Below are positions 9,721 to 64,000 of a stretch of DNA of 64,000 bases, one piece after another. This DNA is from Citrobacter youngae ATCC 29220 (GTDB lineage: Bacteria; Pseudomonadota; Gammaproteobacteria; Enterobacterales; Enterobacteriaceae), in contig NZ_GG730299.1 of NCBI RefSeq assembly GCF_000155975.1, forward strand, positions 1,892,882 through 1,956,881, given 5' to 3'. The first letter of the stretch is position 1, and each line of letters starts with the position of its first letter. The position numbers and the translations under genes are program-made. The notes beneath the pieces are model-generated. The model was not told where the DNA came from and did no database searches. It was given only the letters and a program-made list of their open reading frames with translations.

Positions 9721-11023
9721 GCGCCTGTACCTTGGCTCCGTAATCATTAATCGGCTGCCATTTGGCTGGCAGTCCGGTGAAATCTGCTTGCGCTACGCCA
9801 AGGCGTACCGCCTGATCGATAACAATACGCGCGACGTCGAAATGACGCGCACGTGGATATTGCGCCAGATACTCGCGCACTACCAAACCGAGATCCAGTG
9901 GTGTTTGTCTGGATTTGTAGATAGCCAGCTGTTCTTCGATGATCGCCGCCAGCTGTTCACGGATCTCGTTAAATTCTTCATATTCCAGGTCTGCCGGAAG
10001 CTCACCGGTGACCTCTTCGTCACGCAGCACCATCTCCTCGTCACGCATATCCAGCAGGCGATCGGCATTGGCATAGGTCAGCGCCCATGGATCGTCAAAG
10101 TAGGTCTGCACGGACTGGCGCAGACGCTGGGCAAAGACGCGGTTTTTATCCATATCAATCGCGGTACGGATAAACTTATGCACGTGACGATCGTAGCCGA
10201 TCCACAAATCAATAGACTGCTGGCCCCAACTGATAATACGGTCGAGCTTACTTTGTAAGTCAAACACCAGCTTGTCGACAAAATGCAAATCGTCATGCGC
10301 CATCGTGGCATCCTGGATGCGTAACAGGTTAGCCTGCAGCTTATCCCCCGCCGCTTCCAGCGTATCCTGCAGTTCACGCAGCGTACCCGACGTTTCAGAA
10401 AGCAGCAGTTCACAGCTGGAGATCGCCGCCCGCCAGTCTTTGTTCAGCAACTGTGCGATGTCGTCTTTTACCTGCTGCTGCTGTTCATCCATGATGCGCT
10501 GGGTGAGATCGATACTGTCGAAAATCTCCGCCACCGAGTATTTCAATGGCGCATAGACGTTGCGATGCCAGTGGAACTCATCGCCGCCTTCCGCAGCCGC
10601 ATCCGCGGCGCGCTTCAGTTCGCCTGCAACAATCGACAGCTGCATTGAAAGACGCAGCGTTGAAAATTCGCGCTGACGAATGTAGTAATCCGTGATGCCA
10701 ATCCCGAGCGGCGTTAAACGGTAAATGGCGTTGCCTTCCGCCTGCTCGCTGGTAAAGCGGTTCAGCAGACGTTGACGCACCATATCGTTGATCGCGTTGT
10801 TGGCGCGTACGCCGATGGTTTCGCTGGTTTGCTCAAACGCATCACTCACATGGCGGAACGCATCCACCAGTTCACCTTCACTCATCTCACCGTCAAGCCG
10901 CTCACCGTTCAGTGTCGCGACCGCCAGCAGGAACGAAAGTCTGTCTACCGGCAGAGAGATGGAGAAGTCATTTTTTCTGGCCCAGGCAACCAGTTCGGGG
11001 ACTGTCTGGGAAAATTCACTCAT
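9701..11023 (-). CDS. mukF: Chromosome partition protein MukF (kleisin)
   Basis: 440 residues, matching E. coli. MukF is the kleisin of the MukBEF condensin: an N-terminal winged-helix dimerisation region (residues 1-120), a helical middle that contacts the MukB neck, and a C-terminal winged helix that binds the MukB head cap. Its start overlaps the end of cmoM by 8 bp and its end overlaps mukE by 20 bp, so the operon is tightly coupled. Confidence 0.98.
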
Positions 11024-11819
11024 AAATTATCCTTGCATCTGCGGCTCGGGCCGGACTTTTAATCGCGGTGACATGAATATAGCGCCCAAGGCTGATATAC
11101 GGTTCCTGGCGGCAATAGCGCGTTTCTAACTCAAGTAACATTTCGTAGTCGTCATGCTGTTTATGCTTATCGCGTAGATAATCATGAAACACGCGGACGC
11201 CCGTTTTACCCGTTATCTGCCAACCGATCTCTTCCAGCCACTGGTAGACCTGCTCCGGATCGCGTGGGTAGTCCGGTGATAGCGTACGCTTTTTACGTTT
11301 CGGCATTCCCACCTGCACATAGTCAAAGTTCCCTGCGACCATGTTATGCATCAACAGACCGTTAGCATTGTAGAACATTAACGACAGCGCGCCGCCAGGG
11401 CGTAATACCGACCACAGCGTCTGCAACACGCTGACCGGATCCGTCACCCATTCCAGCACAGCATGAAACAATATCAGATCAACCGGGGTTTCCAAATGCG
11501 CAGTAACGTCCTGAGCGGCGCATTGTATGAAATGCATGTTTCCGCTCACACCTTTTGCCTCTGCCGCCTGTTGCGCTCGGGCGATCATTTCGCCTGAAAG
11601 ATCGCATAATGTCACGAAGTGACCACGTTCCGCCATTTTGATGGCCGTTTGCCCTTCACCGCCACCGGCATCCAGAATGTGTAATTTTTGCTCGCCGAGC
11701 GTCGCCAATAATCGATCCAAATCCTGCCAAAGGATAGCCTGTCTTAATTGACCTTTGGTGGTGCCGTAAATGTTACGGGAAAATTTCTCGGCAATGTCAT
11801 CAAAATTGCGATCCCGCAT
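11016..11819 (-). CDS. cmoM: tRNA 5-carboxymethoxyuridine methyltransferase CmoM (SmtA)
   Basis: SAM-dependent methyltransferase that esterifies 5-carboxymethoxyuridine (cmo5U) at tRNA position 34 to mcmo5U. The Rossmann motif I is [12 protein letters not shown]; a class I fold follows with [10 protein letters not shown] and [13 protein letters not shown]. The start chosen is ATG at 11817-11819 (MRDRNFDD) with GTGGAGAG upstream, giving 267 residues; a GTG four codons upstream (11831) is also in frame. First gene of the muk operon, overlapping mukF by 8 bp. The tRNA role is unrelated to condensin function, so the linkage probably reflects shared transcription. Confidence 0.95.
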
Positions 11820-11954
11820 CGGGCTCTCCACATGCTGGCTTTAGGGTGACTGAGTAAAACCGCTATTTTGTCACACCCACGCCGAGAATGAACCTTCCTG
11901 GTGTAATATCCCTGCAGATCCCCTGCTATATGGTTAAAAAAGGAACCAAAAAGG

Positions 11955-12719
11955 ATGCTTTTTACGCTGAAGAAAGTGATTGGCGGTATGATGCTGCCGC
12001 TGCCGCTGATGCTAATTATGATGGGTATTGGCCTGGCGCTGGTCTGGTTTAGCCGCTTTCAAAAAACAGGGAAAGTGTGTATTAGCCTGAGCTGGCTGGC
12101 GCTGTTACTTCTTAGCCTGCAGCCCGTCGCCGATAGTCTGCTGAAACCTATTGAGGACAGCTATCCCACCTGGCAGGATACGCAAAAAGTGGAATACATT
12201 GTGGTGCTGGGCGGAGGATATACCTGGAACCCGCAGTGGGCGCCGAGTTCGAACCTGATTAACAACAGCCTTCCACGTCTGAATGAAGGTATTCGCTTGT
12301 GGCGCGCTAATCCGGGATCGAAACTTATCTTTACCGGCGCCGCCGCGAAAACCAATAACGTCAGCACGGCTGAAGCAGGTGCTCGCGTGGCGGAGTCGTT
12401 GGGGATCCCGCGCAGCGAGATCATTACGCTGGACAAACCAAAAGACACCGAGGAAGAAGCCGCCGCCGTAAAACACGCTATCGGCGATGCGCCATTCCTG
12501 TTGGTGACCTCTGCATCACATTTGCCACGGGCGATGATTTTCTTCCAGCAGGCCGGGCTGCATCCGCTGCCCGCCCCCGCCAATCAGTTGGCCATTGATT
12601 CTCCGCTTAATCCGTGGGAGCGCGCAATTCCTTCACCTGTCTGGCTAATGCATAGCGATCGCGTCGGCTATGAAACCCTGGGACGCATCTGGCAGTGGTT
12701 GAAGGGAGCGGAACATTGA
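11955..12719 (+). CDS. elyC: Envelope biogenesis factor ElyC (DUF218)
   Basis: Inner-membrane protein needed for normal peptidoglycan assembly, first noted in E. coli through cell lysis at low temperature. 254 residues: two N-terminal membrane helices (about residues 10-32 and 40-58), then a periplasmic DUF218 domain with VVLGGGYTW, LIFTGAAAKTN and LLVTSASHLPRA motifs. Slightly shorter at the C-terminus than E. coli (259). Transcribed away from cmoM; it converges with ycbJ across a REP element. Confidence 0.93.
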   Translation: MLFTLKKVIGGMMLPLPLMLIMMGIGLALVWFSRFQKTGKVCISLSWLALLLLSLQPVADSLLKPIEDSYPTWQDTQKVEYIVVLGGGYTWNPQWAPSSNLINNSLPRLNEGIRLWRANPGSKLIFTGAAAKTNNVSTAEAGARVAESLGIPRSEIITLDKPKDTEEEAAAVKHAIGDAPFLLVTSASHLPRAMIFFQQAGLHPLPAPANQLAIDSPLNPWERAIPSPVWLMHSDRVGYETLGRIWQWLKGAEH

Positions 12720-12729
12720 CAGAAATGTT

Positions 12730-12766
12730 GCCTGATGGCGACGCTGACGCGTCTTATCAGGCCTAC
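12730..12766. repeat. REP element (single palindromic unit)
   Basis: GCCTGAT at 12730-12736 pairs with ATCAGGC at 12756-12762, with the typical GGCGACGC/GCGTC interior and a GCCTACGG tail. This is the standard enterobacterial repetitive extragenic palindrome. It lies between the convergent elyC and ycbJ, where such units commonly stabilise or end transcripts. Confidence 0.9.
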
Positions 12767-12812
12767 GGGTTCAGCGCAGAATTGCTGGCCGGATCGAGCA
12801 TTCATATGTTCT

Positions 12813-13706
12813 TCAGGCGAGCCACGGCAGCAGCGATTTTGTCGCCAGATCAAAGTTGGAACGATTAAAACGCCCGGTATTGACCAGTTGCGTAACTTCA
12901 TCCCATAGCACATACAGCCAGCGCCGCCAGATGAATGACTCCGCCACTGGCGCGCGTTGCAGATATTGCCAAAGCAGGCTTTCCGCCAGAGCATTATCCA
13001 TTAAGCGAAACAACTCATACTCTCTTGGCGCCCACAGCATCAAACCCGGCCCCACCATCGCCAGGAGCTGATCGCTACGAGCATCTTTCAGCATGCTGCG
13101 TAGACTGAAATTACCGTGGATCAGCACGCAGTTATCATTAAAACCTGCAAACAAGTCGGGTAAACATTCGCGGGTGCGGAACAGGATCCGCTTGTCCTGC
13201 ATCGTCAGCCCGGTATTCTGGAACTGATTCAACGTGGTCCACAACACCTCAACACGCTGGCGATACCAGGACGGCCAGATGTTCTCTTGCGTATTATCCA
13301 CCGCTCCCACGCAGCCACGGCTATCCTGCCGATGCCATGACAGCAGACCTTCTACGATCTGATCTTTTAAATGCTCCCAGCGTTCGGGCGTTCGGGCAGG
13401 CGCTTCCACCGGCACGCCGCGCAAACGCTCAAGCAGGAGCACATCAGGACCGGGATGCTCTTCGTGCGTTAACACGCCATAAATGACCGGCATACGCACC
13501 GTACCACTGCGCGCCAGCATGGAGGTTTTCCATGCCAGTTGCTGCGCCATACCCGGCGTGGTGAAACTTCTCGCCATCAGCGGCATCGGATTTCCCTGGC
13601 TGTCGTACAGTGCCCACAGGGCGGTATCCACTTTTTCATTCACGCATTCGATACGACTGAGTTTTTCACCCAGCAGATGGCTGAGTTCGGCACGCAACTG
13701 TTCCAT
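12813..13706 (-). CDS. ycbJ: Predicted phosphotransferase-fold protein YcbJ
   Basis: 297 residues, the E. coli YcbJ length. It resembles the aminoglycoside phosphotransferase/choline kinase fold: VLIHGNFSLRSML matches the catalytic HGD/HGN loop region with Asn in place of the usual Asp, and a VGPGLMLWAPREYEL segment occupies the metal-binding loop position. The absence of the canonical catalytic Asp suggests a degenerate kinase or a non-kinase role. No substrate is known to me. Confidence 0.85.
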   Translation of the reverse strand: MEQLRAELSHLLGEKLSRIECVNEKVDTALWALYDSQGNPMPLMARSFTTPGMAQQLAWKTSMLARSGTVRMPVIYGVLTHEEHPGPDVLLLERLRGVPVEAPARTPERWEHLKDQIVEGLLSWHRQDSRGCVGAVDNTQENIWPSWYRQRVEVLWTTLNQFQNTGLTMQDKRILFRTRECLPDLFAGFNDNCVLIHGNFSLRSMLKDARSDQLLAMVGPGLMLWAPREYELFRLMDNALAESLLWQYLQRAPVAESFIWRRWLYVLWDEVTQLVNTGRFNRSNFDLATKSLLPWLA

Positions 13707-13819
13707 TTGAGATTGCCCTCATAAAAGCTACTGCTTTCATAATGAGCGTCGCGCAGACAGATGTCACCCGGATGAGATCAATTGATGAAAAGAAAAGCAC
13801 AGAGAAAACGTAACGATAC

Positions 13820-13859
13820 GACACTCCTCCCAAAAAAGCGCCATGATGGGGGGAGTGTC
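13820..13859. other. Long inverted repeat between ycbJ and kdsB
   Basis: Twelve paired positions (13820-13831 with 13848-13859, one G-T pair) enclose a 16-base loop containing a run of A residues. It lies 10 bp beyond the kdsB stop on the minus strand but lacks a following U-tract, so it is not a textbook terminator. A processed 3' end or protective structure for kdsB mRNA is possible. Confidence 0.6.
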
Positions 13860-13869
13860 ATGAGAAAAA

Positions 13870-14795
<926 letters not shown>

Positions 14796-62481: not shown

Positions 62482-62569
62482 GGTGAGGTGTCCGAGTGGC
62501 TGAAGGAGCACGCCTGGAAAGTGTGTATACGGCAACGTATCGGGGGTTCGAATCCCCCCCTCACCGCCA
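62482..62569 (+). tRNA. serW: tRNA-Ser (anticodon GGA)
   Basis: 88 bases including the encoded CCA end. Acceptor GGTGAGG pairs with CCTCACC; the anticodon GGA is at 62516-62518 in the loop CTGGAAA; a long class II variable arm (GTGTATACGGCAACGTATC region) follows; the T arm is GGGGGTTCGAATCCCCC. It reads TCC and TCT codons. It is at the serW locus of E. coli, but its usual neighbour clpA is absent to the right. Confidence 0.98.
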
Positions 62570-62580
62570 TATTCAAAGAG

Positions 62581-62610
62581 AAGCTCGCATTCACATGCGA
62601 GCTTTTTTTT
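62581..62610 (+). terminator. serW terminator
   Basis: AAGCTCGCAT (62581-62590) pairs with ATGCGAGCTT (62595-62604), loop TCAC, followed by T residues to 62610. A second copy of this hairpin lies 184 bp further on at 62765-62788. Confidence 0.92.
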
Positions 62611-62660
62611 CGCATATTGCACGCTCACGGGGGGAATGAGAAGCCCCGACCGGGGTTCGA

Positions 62661-62734
62661 CTGCTGGCGCAGCCAGCTGGACAGACCGGGAGCGCAGCGA
62701 ACGGGCTGCCCCGAAGGGGCGAGCAAAGCGAGTC
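62661..62734. repeat. 74-bp palindromic insert within the duplicated tRNA T-arm
   Basis: It contains GCTGGC-GCA-GCCAGC (62663-62677) and GCCCC-GAA-GGGGC (62708-62720) and ends GCGAGTC. It is inserted between GGGGTTCGA and AATCCCC, the two halves of a T arm. Small palindromic elements like this occur near enterobacterial tRNA genes; its origin is not determined here. Confidence 0.6.
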
Positions 62735-62846
62735 AATCCCCCCCTCACCGCCATATTCAAAGAGAAGCTCGCATTCACATGCGAGCTTTTTTTTCGCATA
62801 TTGCGCGCCCACGGGGGGATGAGAAGCCCCGACTGGGGTTCGACAC

Positions 62847-62867
62847 AAAATTGCCGGGAGCAATTTT
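62847..62867. other. Inverted repeat after the second tRNA-end copy
   Basis: AAAATTGC (62847-62854) pairs with GCAATTTT (62860-62867), loop CGGGA. It directly follows GGGGTTCGAC of the second copy and could be part of the same element family or of the transcription end. From here to 63034 there is no gene, only the likely promoter of the next one. Confidence 0.7.
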
Positions 62868-63034
62868 GAACAGCGCACATCTCCTGATGATCCCCCCTAA
62901 AAATGGCTTATTGCGACATTACTTTCAGCACACTCTATTACATCTTTCCCATTTAGGCTTTCCCTGTCCCCTGCCTTTGTCCCACGGGAACATCTGGCAG
63001 GAATATCACACTAATTTCAGTTCAAGGAGCAGTT

Positions 63035-64000
63035 ATGTCCGATTCCGTTCTTGCAGGCACCAGCCTCATTCTCTACACCGGTAAAAATTATGCCGGCACC
63101 CAGCAGTCGGTCACTCACGGCGTCACCGGCGAGCTTGCTGCCAGTTCGGCCTCCTGGGACTACGCCTCTGCGGCCATGTCCTCCATGCAGGTCTTCATCT
63201 TCAGCGATGTCAGCACCGCGGATGCCTCCGCCAGCTATCTCGGCCATGCCGAAGATCTTCTCAGCACCAGCGTATCTGACCTCACCGCCCTGTATCCCTC
63301 TGCCACTCAGTTTCCGCTCAACTTCCTCGGTCTTAACCCCGCTATCGCCACGCTGGTCCGGCTGGTGATTGACCCGGAACAGGCCGCTCCCGATGCGGTG
63401 GCATCGACCGCGCAGGTCGGCGGCAGCACCACCAACATCACCACCCTGAGCCTGCAGGGCCATCCGGGGGCCCTCGGCTTCGTTAGCCTGACGGAAGGCA
63501 GTTCGGTGGTGGCCACCTGCCCGTACGGAACATATAACAGCGCAGACGGTACCATCGACTGGAGCGGCAAAATGGGCTCCGTGGCGCTGGAATATACCGG
63601 TGGCCGTATTGTGGTGGTCAGTACCAGCGGATTCCCGGACGGCTGGGATTTTGGCGCGCCGGAGCAACAAGCGGACGGTTCGTGGACGGTGGCGCTGAAC
63701 GGCGGTGTGCCAGCAGGTAACGAGATTGCCGCTATCAGCGCCAGTCCGGCCAGTATCGTCAATGACGGCAGCAGCGCGTCGGTCATTACCGCCAGCGTGG
63801 TGAACGCCAACGGTCTGCCCGTCTCCGGCGTCACGGTAAACTGGAGCACCACGGCGGGCAGCCTGAGCGTGGCGAGTTCGGTCACGTCAGCAAACGGCAA
63901 GGCCACCACCTCGCTGACGGACAGTGGCGCAGCCGGTCTGGTGACGGTGACGGCCGCCATCAGCGGCAGCAGCAAAAGCACCCAGGTGACGGTCACGGAC
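63035..64000 (+). CDS. Large Ig-like (Big) repeat protein, 3' end missing
   Basis: ATG 63035-63037 with AAGGAG six bases upstream; the frame stays open to the window edge (322 codons). There is no Sec or Tat signal: the protein begins MSDSVLAGTSLILYTGKNY. Residues 10-56 (LYTGKNYAGTQQSV, then SWDYASAAMSSMQVFIF) look like one beta/gamma-crystallin motif. Residues 60-225 are unassigned. A Big_1-type Ig-like domain spans about 231-322 (ISASPASIVNDGSSASVITA, VVNANGLPVSGVTVNWSTTAG), and more repeats are likely outside. DNA here is GC-rich: two 60-base lines (63121 and 63361) each have 41 G+C by count. It is unlike neighbours in codon use and is probably acquired. Secretion, if any, would need a dedicated system. 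Confidence 0.85.
   Translation, partial: MSDSVLAGTSLILYTGKNYAGTQQSVTHGVTGELAASSASWDYASAAMSSMQVFIFSDVSTADASASYLGHAEDLLSTSVSDLTALYPSATQFPLNFLGLNPAIATLVRLVIDPEQAAPDAVASTAQVGGSTTNITTLSLQGHPGALGFVSLTEGSSVVATCPYGTYNSADGTIDWSGKMGSVALEYTGGRIVVVSTSGFPDGWDFGAPEQQADGSWTVALNGGVPAGNEIAAISASPASIVNDGSSASVITASVVNANGLPVSGVTVNWSTTAGSLSVASSVTSANGKATTSLTDSGAAGLVTVTAAISGSSKSTQVTVTD

Follow-up and report, generated by a model that had tools for sequence, protein, structure and literature searches.

DdCAD-1 of Dictyostelium mediates adhesion as a soluble protein and carries no signal. Among bacterial adhesins, the barrel protein ZirT exports ZirS, a Sec-dependent partner whose signal is cleaved (PMC2270342), and partner genes of a similar kind are described beside iatB and sinH (PMC6714894). 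Published type 10 systems (YenLC, ChiWXYZ) release leaderless cargo by lysis, some of them being located inside Tc toxin operons (PMC10847048). Here we describe a leaderless gene at the end of a 64,000-nucleotide (nt) stretch of the Citrobacter youngae ATCC 29220 genome (the window; contig C10:1892882-1956881 of the 5.15-Mb genome G000, with coordinates 62482-64000 below being positions in the window), whose product, P0001, combines a crystallin-like N-domain, immunoglobulin-like (Ig) domains and RCC1 repeats. The interpretation that we favor, with roughly even confidence, is that P0001 acts outside the cell as an adhesion or matrix protein, in partnership with the inverse autotransporter of its own island, because its relatives sit in operons beside such invasin-like adhesins. 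Throughout, G and L numbers designate genomes and fetched loci, P0002 is the paralogous protein encoded on contig C8, A2 is the profile of the N-domain, and A3-like and A4-like refer to leaderless partner genes and their profiles.

The part of the gene within the window (5' 322 codons, 63035..64000, forward strand) starts with an ATG 466 bp past the end of the tRNA gene serW [tRNA-Ser(GGA), 62482..62569, forward, found by ARAGORN] and is preceded, with a 5-nt spacer, by the ribosome binding site AAGGAG (63024..63029, forward). No stop interrupts this frame before the edge of the window, and in the full contig it codes for 889 amino acids (aa) in all, with its stop at window-equivalent position 65704. 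A first-pass annotation made from the window alone had described a GC-rich, leaderless Ig gene near serW with a strong ribosome binding site; the tRNA, the start codon, AAGGAG and the long frame were all confirmed, and so was the composition (63% GC for 63035-64000 versus 53% for the whole window). The Big-type Ig domain that it recognized corresponds to two Big_1/Invasin_D3 domains in Pfam (1.3e-28), at residues 233-321 (63731..63997, forward) and 331-418, the second located beyond the window together with the RCC1 repeats of the C-terminal part (RCC1_2, 68.2 bits versus a cut-off of 22); a WD40_RLD stretch at 719-868 scored 60 bits, under its cut-off of 150. Residues 1-230 had no Pfam match, and an NCBIfam scan gave no convincing match. 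In the AF2 model, residues 7-105 (63053..63349, forward) adopt a two-Greek-key beta/gamma-crystallin fold, followed by a second beta domain at residues 106-227 (63350..63715, forward) that resembles those of APP and DdCAD-1 and has a weak match to RahU (aegerolysin). The predicted structure of this N-module matched DdCAD-1 and APP across both domains, in the order crystallin domain, then beta domain; the BFVD fold search gave no match at E 0.001 or better. Thus, the crystallin-like start suspected in the annotation agrees with the predicted fold. The Pfam crystallin families, at E up to 1, had no match in either G000 copy (P0001 or P0002), and the crystallin calcium motif was also unmatched (see below).

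A search with residues 1-230 retrieved 38 proteins including P0001 and its paralogue, the others being 37 to 63% identical. The members that carry an organism name belong to Enterobacterales (Citrobacter, Enterobacter, Franconibacter, Buttiauxella, Cronobacter, Pseudescherichia and Salmonella). The N-domain keeps 25 invariant alignment columns, and eight members have a second, diverged copy of it (BLAST). The C-termini are swapped, with an Ig-like pair in 17 members, RCC1 repeats in 12 and neither in 9. To look for signal peptides, we used a home-made three-part rule (positive n-region, hydrophobic core and AxA-like end), adopted because the plain hydropathy maximum failed to separate the classes (P0002 scores 2.08) and was rejected. 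Among the proteins taken as positive controls, the rule fired in 109 of 120 that are halovibrin-like and in 14 of 21 that are autotransporters. It fired in none of the 38 family members, window protein included, as the annotation had held, and in none of 18 A3-like proteins. The paralogue P0002 (619 aa) is encoded by a gene that is 94.3% identical to the window gene over 1,374 bp (62894..64000, forward, running on to ~64266), starting 141 bp upstream of the ATG and reaching approximately residue 410, and diverges from there on; because of this pattern, the pair is read as the probable product of a duplication in which the tail was exchanged. Of 392 family-level genomes, 4 contained N-domain genes, and a search of the genome contigs gave two loci. 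One plasmid record contained an N-domain and eight an A3-like gene. There was no N-domain relative among the eight pattern stretches from viral contigs, no N-domain match in phage records and no DNA match to 63035-64000 in E. coli genomes.

In the relatives, the N-domain gene is the last of a close-packed series. The order in the Enterobacter plasmid CP057783.1 (L021), Ewingella (L013), Buttiauxella (L012) and G099 (L022) is a divergent autotransporter, the A4-like gene where present, the A3-like gene and the N-domain gene, with spacings between the last two of 24, about -8, 24 and 22 bp, respectively. The N-domain genes of G197 and G271 are preceded, at 32 and 30 bp, by an A3-tail gene that stands alone. 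This order of partner and then N-domain is kept in six of the eight N-domain loci and broken only in the two of G000, and the window gene looks like the displaced third gene of such an operon. A3-like genes are present in 26 of 392 family-level genomes (the order-level search found them in 3 of 394, all three already in the family-level set). The A3-like fold search listed Ig folds of intimin as well as complement, macroglobulin and factor XIII folds, a result that we take no further than a predicted tandem of Ig domains, the last one being intimin-Ig-like.

To evaluate the association of these partners with inverse autotransporters, we took the best A3-like place per genome and a distance of 10 kb, with the expectation calculated from gene number and genome size. 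The 26 genomes having an A3-like gene contain 82 IAT_beta genes, and an autotransporter was found within 10 kb of the A3-like gene in 14 of them versus 0.37 expected (by genus, 10 of 15 versus 0.21). Among the genomes with an A3-like E below 1e-30, 12 of 13 have a nearby autotransporter, the exception being G389. The corresponding P of 1.5e-20 is a guide only, since the null treats the genes as independently scattered. An autotransporter was also present in the fetched stretch of five of the eight N-domain loci. At the G389 locus (L081), A4-like and A3-like genes are arranged in tandem sets along with leaderless Ig genes, and that contig has no autotransporter; G000, with eleven IAT_beta genes, has the most among the 26 genomes searched.

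Downstream of the window gene, the island of G000 contains, in turn, a gene whose 549-aa product begins in a signal-like way, one for a LysR-type regulator, a holin-like gene on the other strand (PHROG lysis family, 8.4e-5) and three phage-family genes (a methyltransferase, a sialyltransferase and an unnamed one). An inverse autotransporter of 1,516 aa (IAT_beta 2e-98, 12 Big_1 stretches) is encoded 7 kb downstream of the window gene; the lack of an inverse-autotransporter barrel stated in the annotation is therefore true of P0001 but not of its surroundings. It is followed by an IprA-like regulator, a leaderless 339-aa A4-like gene, a leaderless 686-aa A3-like gene and, past the latter, a lysozyme gene of phage type (5.3e-8) and a 228-aa stretch that repeats the A3 tail. 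On the far side come rlmC and then the pot operon (both named by eye). The annotation had suggested that a type I or other secretion machine may lie just past the window; no type I system was recognized by eye in the open reading frame lists for the 34 kb past the gene start.

At the serW side, an 85-nt direct repeat consists of the serW 3' end plus its downstream hairpin (first copy, 62551..62635, forward) and a second copy 184 bp on (62735..62819, forward, 98%), as after integration at a tRNA gene. The far attachment site that the annotation envisaged was not recovered: a 22-base tRNA 3'-end pattern run over the 95 fetched loci matched only the serW copies at this island, its other match being in L067, in another genome. 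The island links serW to rlmC, and poxB is 1.4 Mb away (L027:11072-12199 versus C10:517453-519171); in E. coli, poxB is located between serW and rlmC. The serW-rlmC junction is a rearrangement breakpoint.

Several neighbors recur around these genes. The 549-aa protein matches two G099 neighbors, one of which groups with proteins named HvnC or halovibrin HvnA; signal-bearing halovibrin-like (HvnC/HvnA) genes adjoin N-domain genes in two lineages (L009:3128-4777 and L022:14371-16384), and Big_1 domains occur in some database HvnC-like proteins. The phage-family trio (unnamed, methyltransferase and sialyltransferase) is repeated near clusters in L009:7646-9759 (reverse strand), L028:8668-10795, L068 and L078, with no methyltransferase found in L068 and only a 58-aa piece of it in L078. 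Lipoxygenase-family genes are located inside two clusters (L028:15849-17645 and L065:5680-8829, the latter with a long N-terminal extension). TcdB/SpvB-type or RHS genes adjoin N-domain or A3-like genes in three settings (L023:16107-19847, L012:14381-19207 and L029:21649-24885), and contractile tail tube and sheath genes stand directly beside the autotransporter/A4/A3 cluster of G094 (L067:75-1662). The neighbors in G197 and G271 were also considered as phage tail genes and rejected, the one scanned (G197) being of the TcdB/SpvB type.

If P0001 is indeed an extracellular partner of the autotransporter, the leaderless proteins and the Ig stalk of the adhesin would work jointly at the surface. 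The conserved N-module would then provide the adhesive or docking part that the proteins share, and the variable tail (RCC1 or intimin-like Ig pair) would form a putative recognition head. For export, phage-type lysis release similar to that of type 10 systems would be our first choice, because holin, endolysin or spanin genes are present in four clusters. We examined 18 A3-like loci, comprising the 13 genomes with an A3-like E below 1e-30 plus L012, L013, L021, L028 and L029. A Pantoea plasmid (L028) carries a holin, an amidase, a lysozyme and an Rz spanin with the autotransporter, A3-like and A4-like genes and a lipoxygenase, and it is the only locus where holin, endolysin and spanin are found together. 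Partial sets were found in three genomes: in G099, a holin (6.7e-11) and an M15 endolysin (1.3e-39) separate the A4-like gene from the A3-like one, in G024 a lysozyme (1.5e-46) occupies that position, and G000 has a lysozyme and a weak holin. Rather than a single cassette, the four loci have different genes (lysozyme in three, M15 peptidase in the fourth and holins of two PHROG families), which makes separate acquisition likely. An amidase near the G076, G197 and G271 clusters was rejected as a lysis gene, having a lipoprotein-like start and adjoining an artP-like gene; it is probably the housekeeping amiD. A more elaborate scenario, which we consider unlikely, is that some cells lyse via a captured phage cassette and the leaderless crystallin-Ig proteins dock, Ig to Ig, on the autotransporter of their living siblings, providing a changeable adhesive head. 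Such a system would unite type 10 release with type V adhesins and would give bacteria an adhesion module resembling DdCAD-1.

Several observations weigh against a surface partnership fed by lysis, of which export is the least certain part. Only 4 of the 18 loci have lysis genes, and none were recognized in the other 14 with seed proteins and small-gene lists inspected by eye, in which a diverged holin could be missed. In G000 itself, the lysozyme match is modest (5.3e-8), the holin-like match is weak (8.4e-5) and on the other strand, and the seed-protein search found no spanin. For Phage_lysozyme, the single family counted genome-wide, 2 of 26 genomes had a gene within 10 kb versus 0.24 expected (P 0.024), a proximity that is suggestive only. 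A signal-like start was found in 2 of 45 A3/A4-like frames of the loci, both on the most upstream start codon. Concerning the adhesin, the A3-like gene lacks an autotransporter within 10 kb in 12 of the 26 genomes, none occurs in the stretches or contigs of the C8 paralogue and the G197 and G271 copies, and the proximity in G000 is weak taken alone, because this genome carries 11 autotransporter genes. Finally, the N-module is tied to APP and DdCAD-1 by predicted fold and not by sequence, neither being among the matches of profile A2 to Protein Data Bank (PDB) sequences at E up to 10, and the calcium motif [ND][ND]xx[ST]S was found at the expected place in none of the 38 members, with one match overall, at residue 2.

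Other routes and roles have to be weighed against the same data. The layout of the clusters is the same as that of zirTS and sinHI (PMC2270342, PMC6714894), and Big_1/intimin-like Ig domains are common to the partners and the autotransporter, so the latter might carry periplasmic partners across the outer membrane. We find this quite unlikely, as ZirS is Sec-dependent with a cleaved signal (PMC2270342), whereas no route into the periplasm is apparent for the proteins described here. In E. coli SMS-3-5, SinI (330 aa, adjoining SinH) likewise has a signal-like N-terminus and was unmatched by profiles A2, A3 and A4. Type I secretion in trans, by an ATP-binding cassette (ABC) exporter with membrane-fusion and outer membrane proteins, would find a candidate in the Lap-type locus around the C8 paralogue (L010:1178-9286, 9930-11789, 11900-14542; L025:5760-9336). 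There, the paralogue is located between a gene for a 2,702-aa LapA-like adhesin (named by eye) and lapD/lapG (LapG, 351 bits versus a cut-off of 320; LapD, 1017 versus 1020), with an ABC exporter and a membrane-fusion gene (named by eye) next to them. However, the RTX core GGxG.D is in neither P0001 nor P0002 (one GGxG[NS]D core occurs in 2 of the 38 members), type I genes were unrecognized by eye beside the window copy or in the gene listings of the relatives' loci, and a type I signal would lie in the tails, which are swapped between members. We consider this route improbable.

The proteins could also be cytoplasmic or particle bound, as components or payloads of phage-tail-like or Tc-type particles rather than adhesins. 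The G197 copy adjoins a TcdB/SpvB-type gene (Pfam, 8e-39) and the G271 neighbor looks alike, there is an RHS-repeat gene near the Buttiauxella copy and an annotated RHS gene near a Yersinia A3-like relative, and the G094 A3/A4 cluster lies beside tail-tube and sheath genes. Still, such neighbors vary by locus whereas the inverse autotransporter recurs, and the N-domain was unmatched in phage records and viral contigs, which leaves this role improbable in our view. Least probable of all seems a decaying remnant of a mobile island without present function, even if the tRNA 3' end is duplicated at the serW side and the neighborhood is rearranged relative to the E. coli order (poxB 1.4 Mb off), with a gene order unlike that of the relatives. 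The 889-codon frame and the paralogue are intact, and the N-domain keeps its invariant positions at 37 to 94% identity across the family.

The annotation had put this gene forward as a candidate for an undescribed system. Our literature searches on inverse autotransporters found, judging by titles and abstract starts, no description of the cluster. Its layout recalls zirTS/sinHI. An extracellular partnership would add leaderless, swappable partners to inverse autotransporters, whose published partners considered here are Sec-exported, and would place in surface-type operons of bacteria a pairing of crystallin and beta domain that is otherwise seen here in a fungal protein and in an adhesion protein of a slime mould. 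Should the link to lysis be borne out, one could test directly whether captured phage genes export adhesive proteins that have no leader.

Compared with the systems described above, these clusters share with ZirTS and SinHI an intimin/invasin-type barrel gene next to separate partner genes and Ig-rich parts. However, ZirS (as published) and SinI (as inspected) carry Sec-type signals, whereas the leaderless partners here are built from crystallin, RCC1 and intimin-like Ig parts and sometimes have lysis genes nearby. Because the partners have no Sec signal and SinI is unmatched by the profiles, in a sequence comparison that covers SinI and not ZirS, the clusters are ZirTS/SinHI-like in layout but not members by the Sec criterion. 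As in type 10 systems, a putative leaderless cargo is accompanied, in four loci, by holin, endolysin or spanin genes of phage type; the difference is that lysis genes accompany only 4 of 18 clusters, with the full holin, endolysin and spanin set in the Pantoea locus only, the comparison here being one of genes alone. P0001 has Big_1/Invasin_D3 Ig domains in common with the intimin/invasin Big_1 adhesins but neither their signal peptide nor their barrel. With DdCAD-1 (Dictyostelium) and APP (Neurospora), the likeness is the predicted two-domain crystallin and beta fold of the N-module, in the face of no detectable sequence relation and no canonical calcium motif in the P0001 family, in which this module is fused to Ig domains plus RCC1 or Ig-pair tails.
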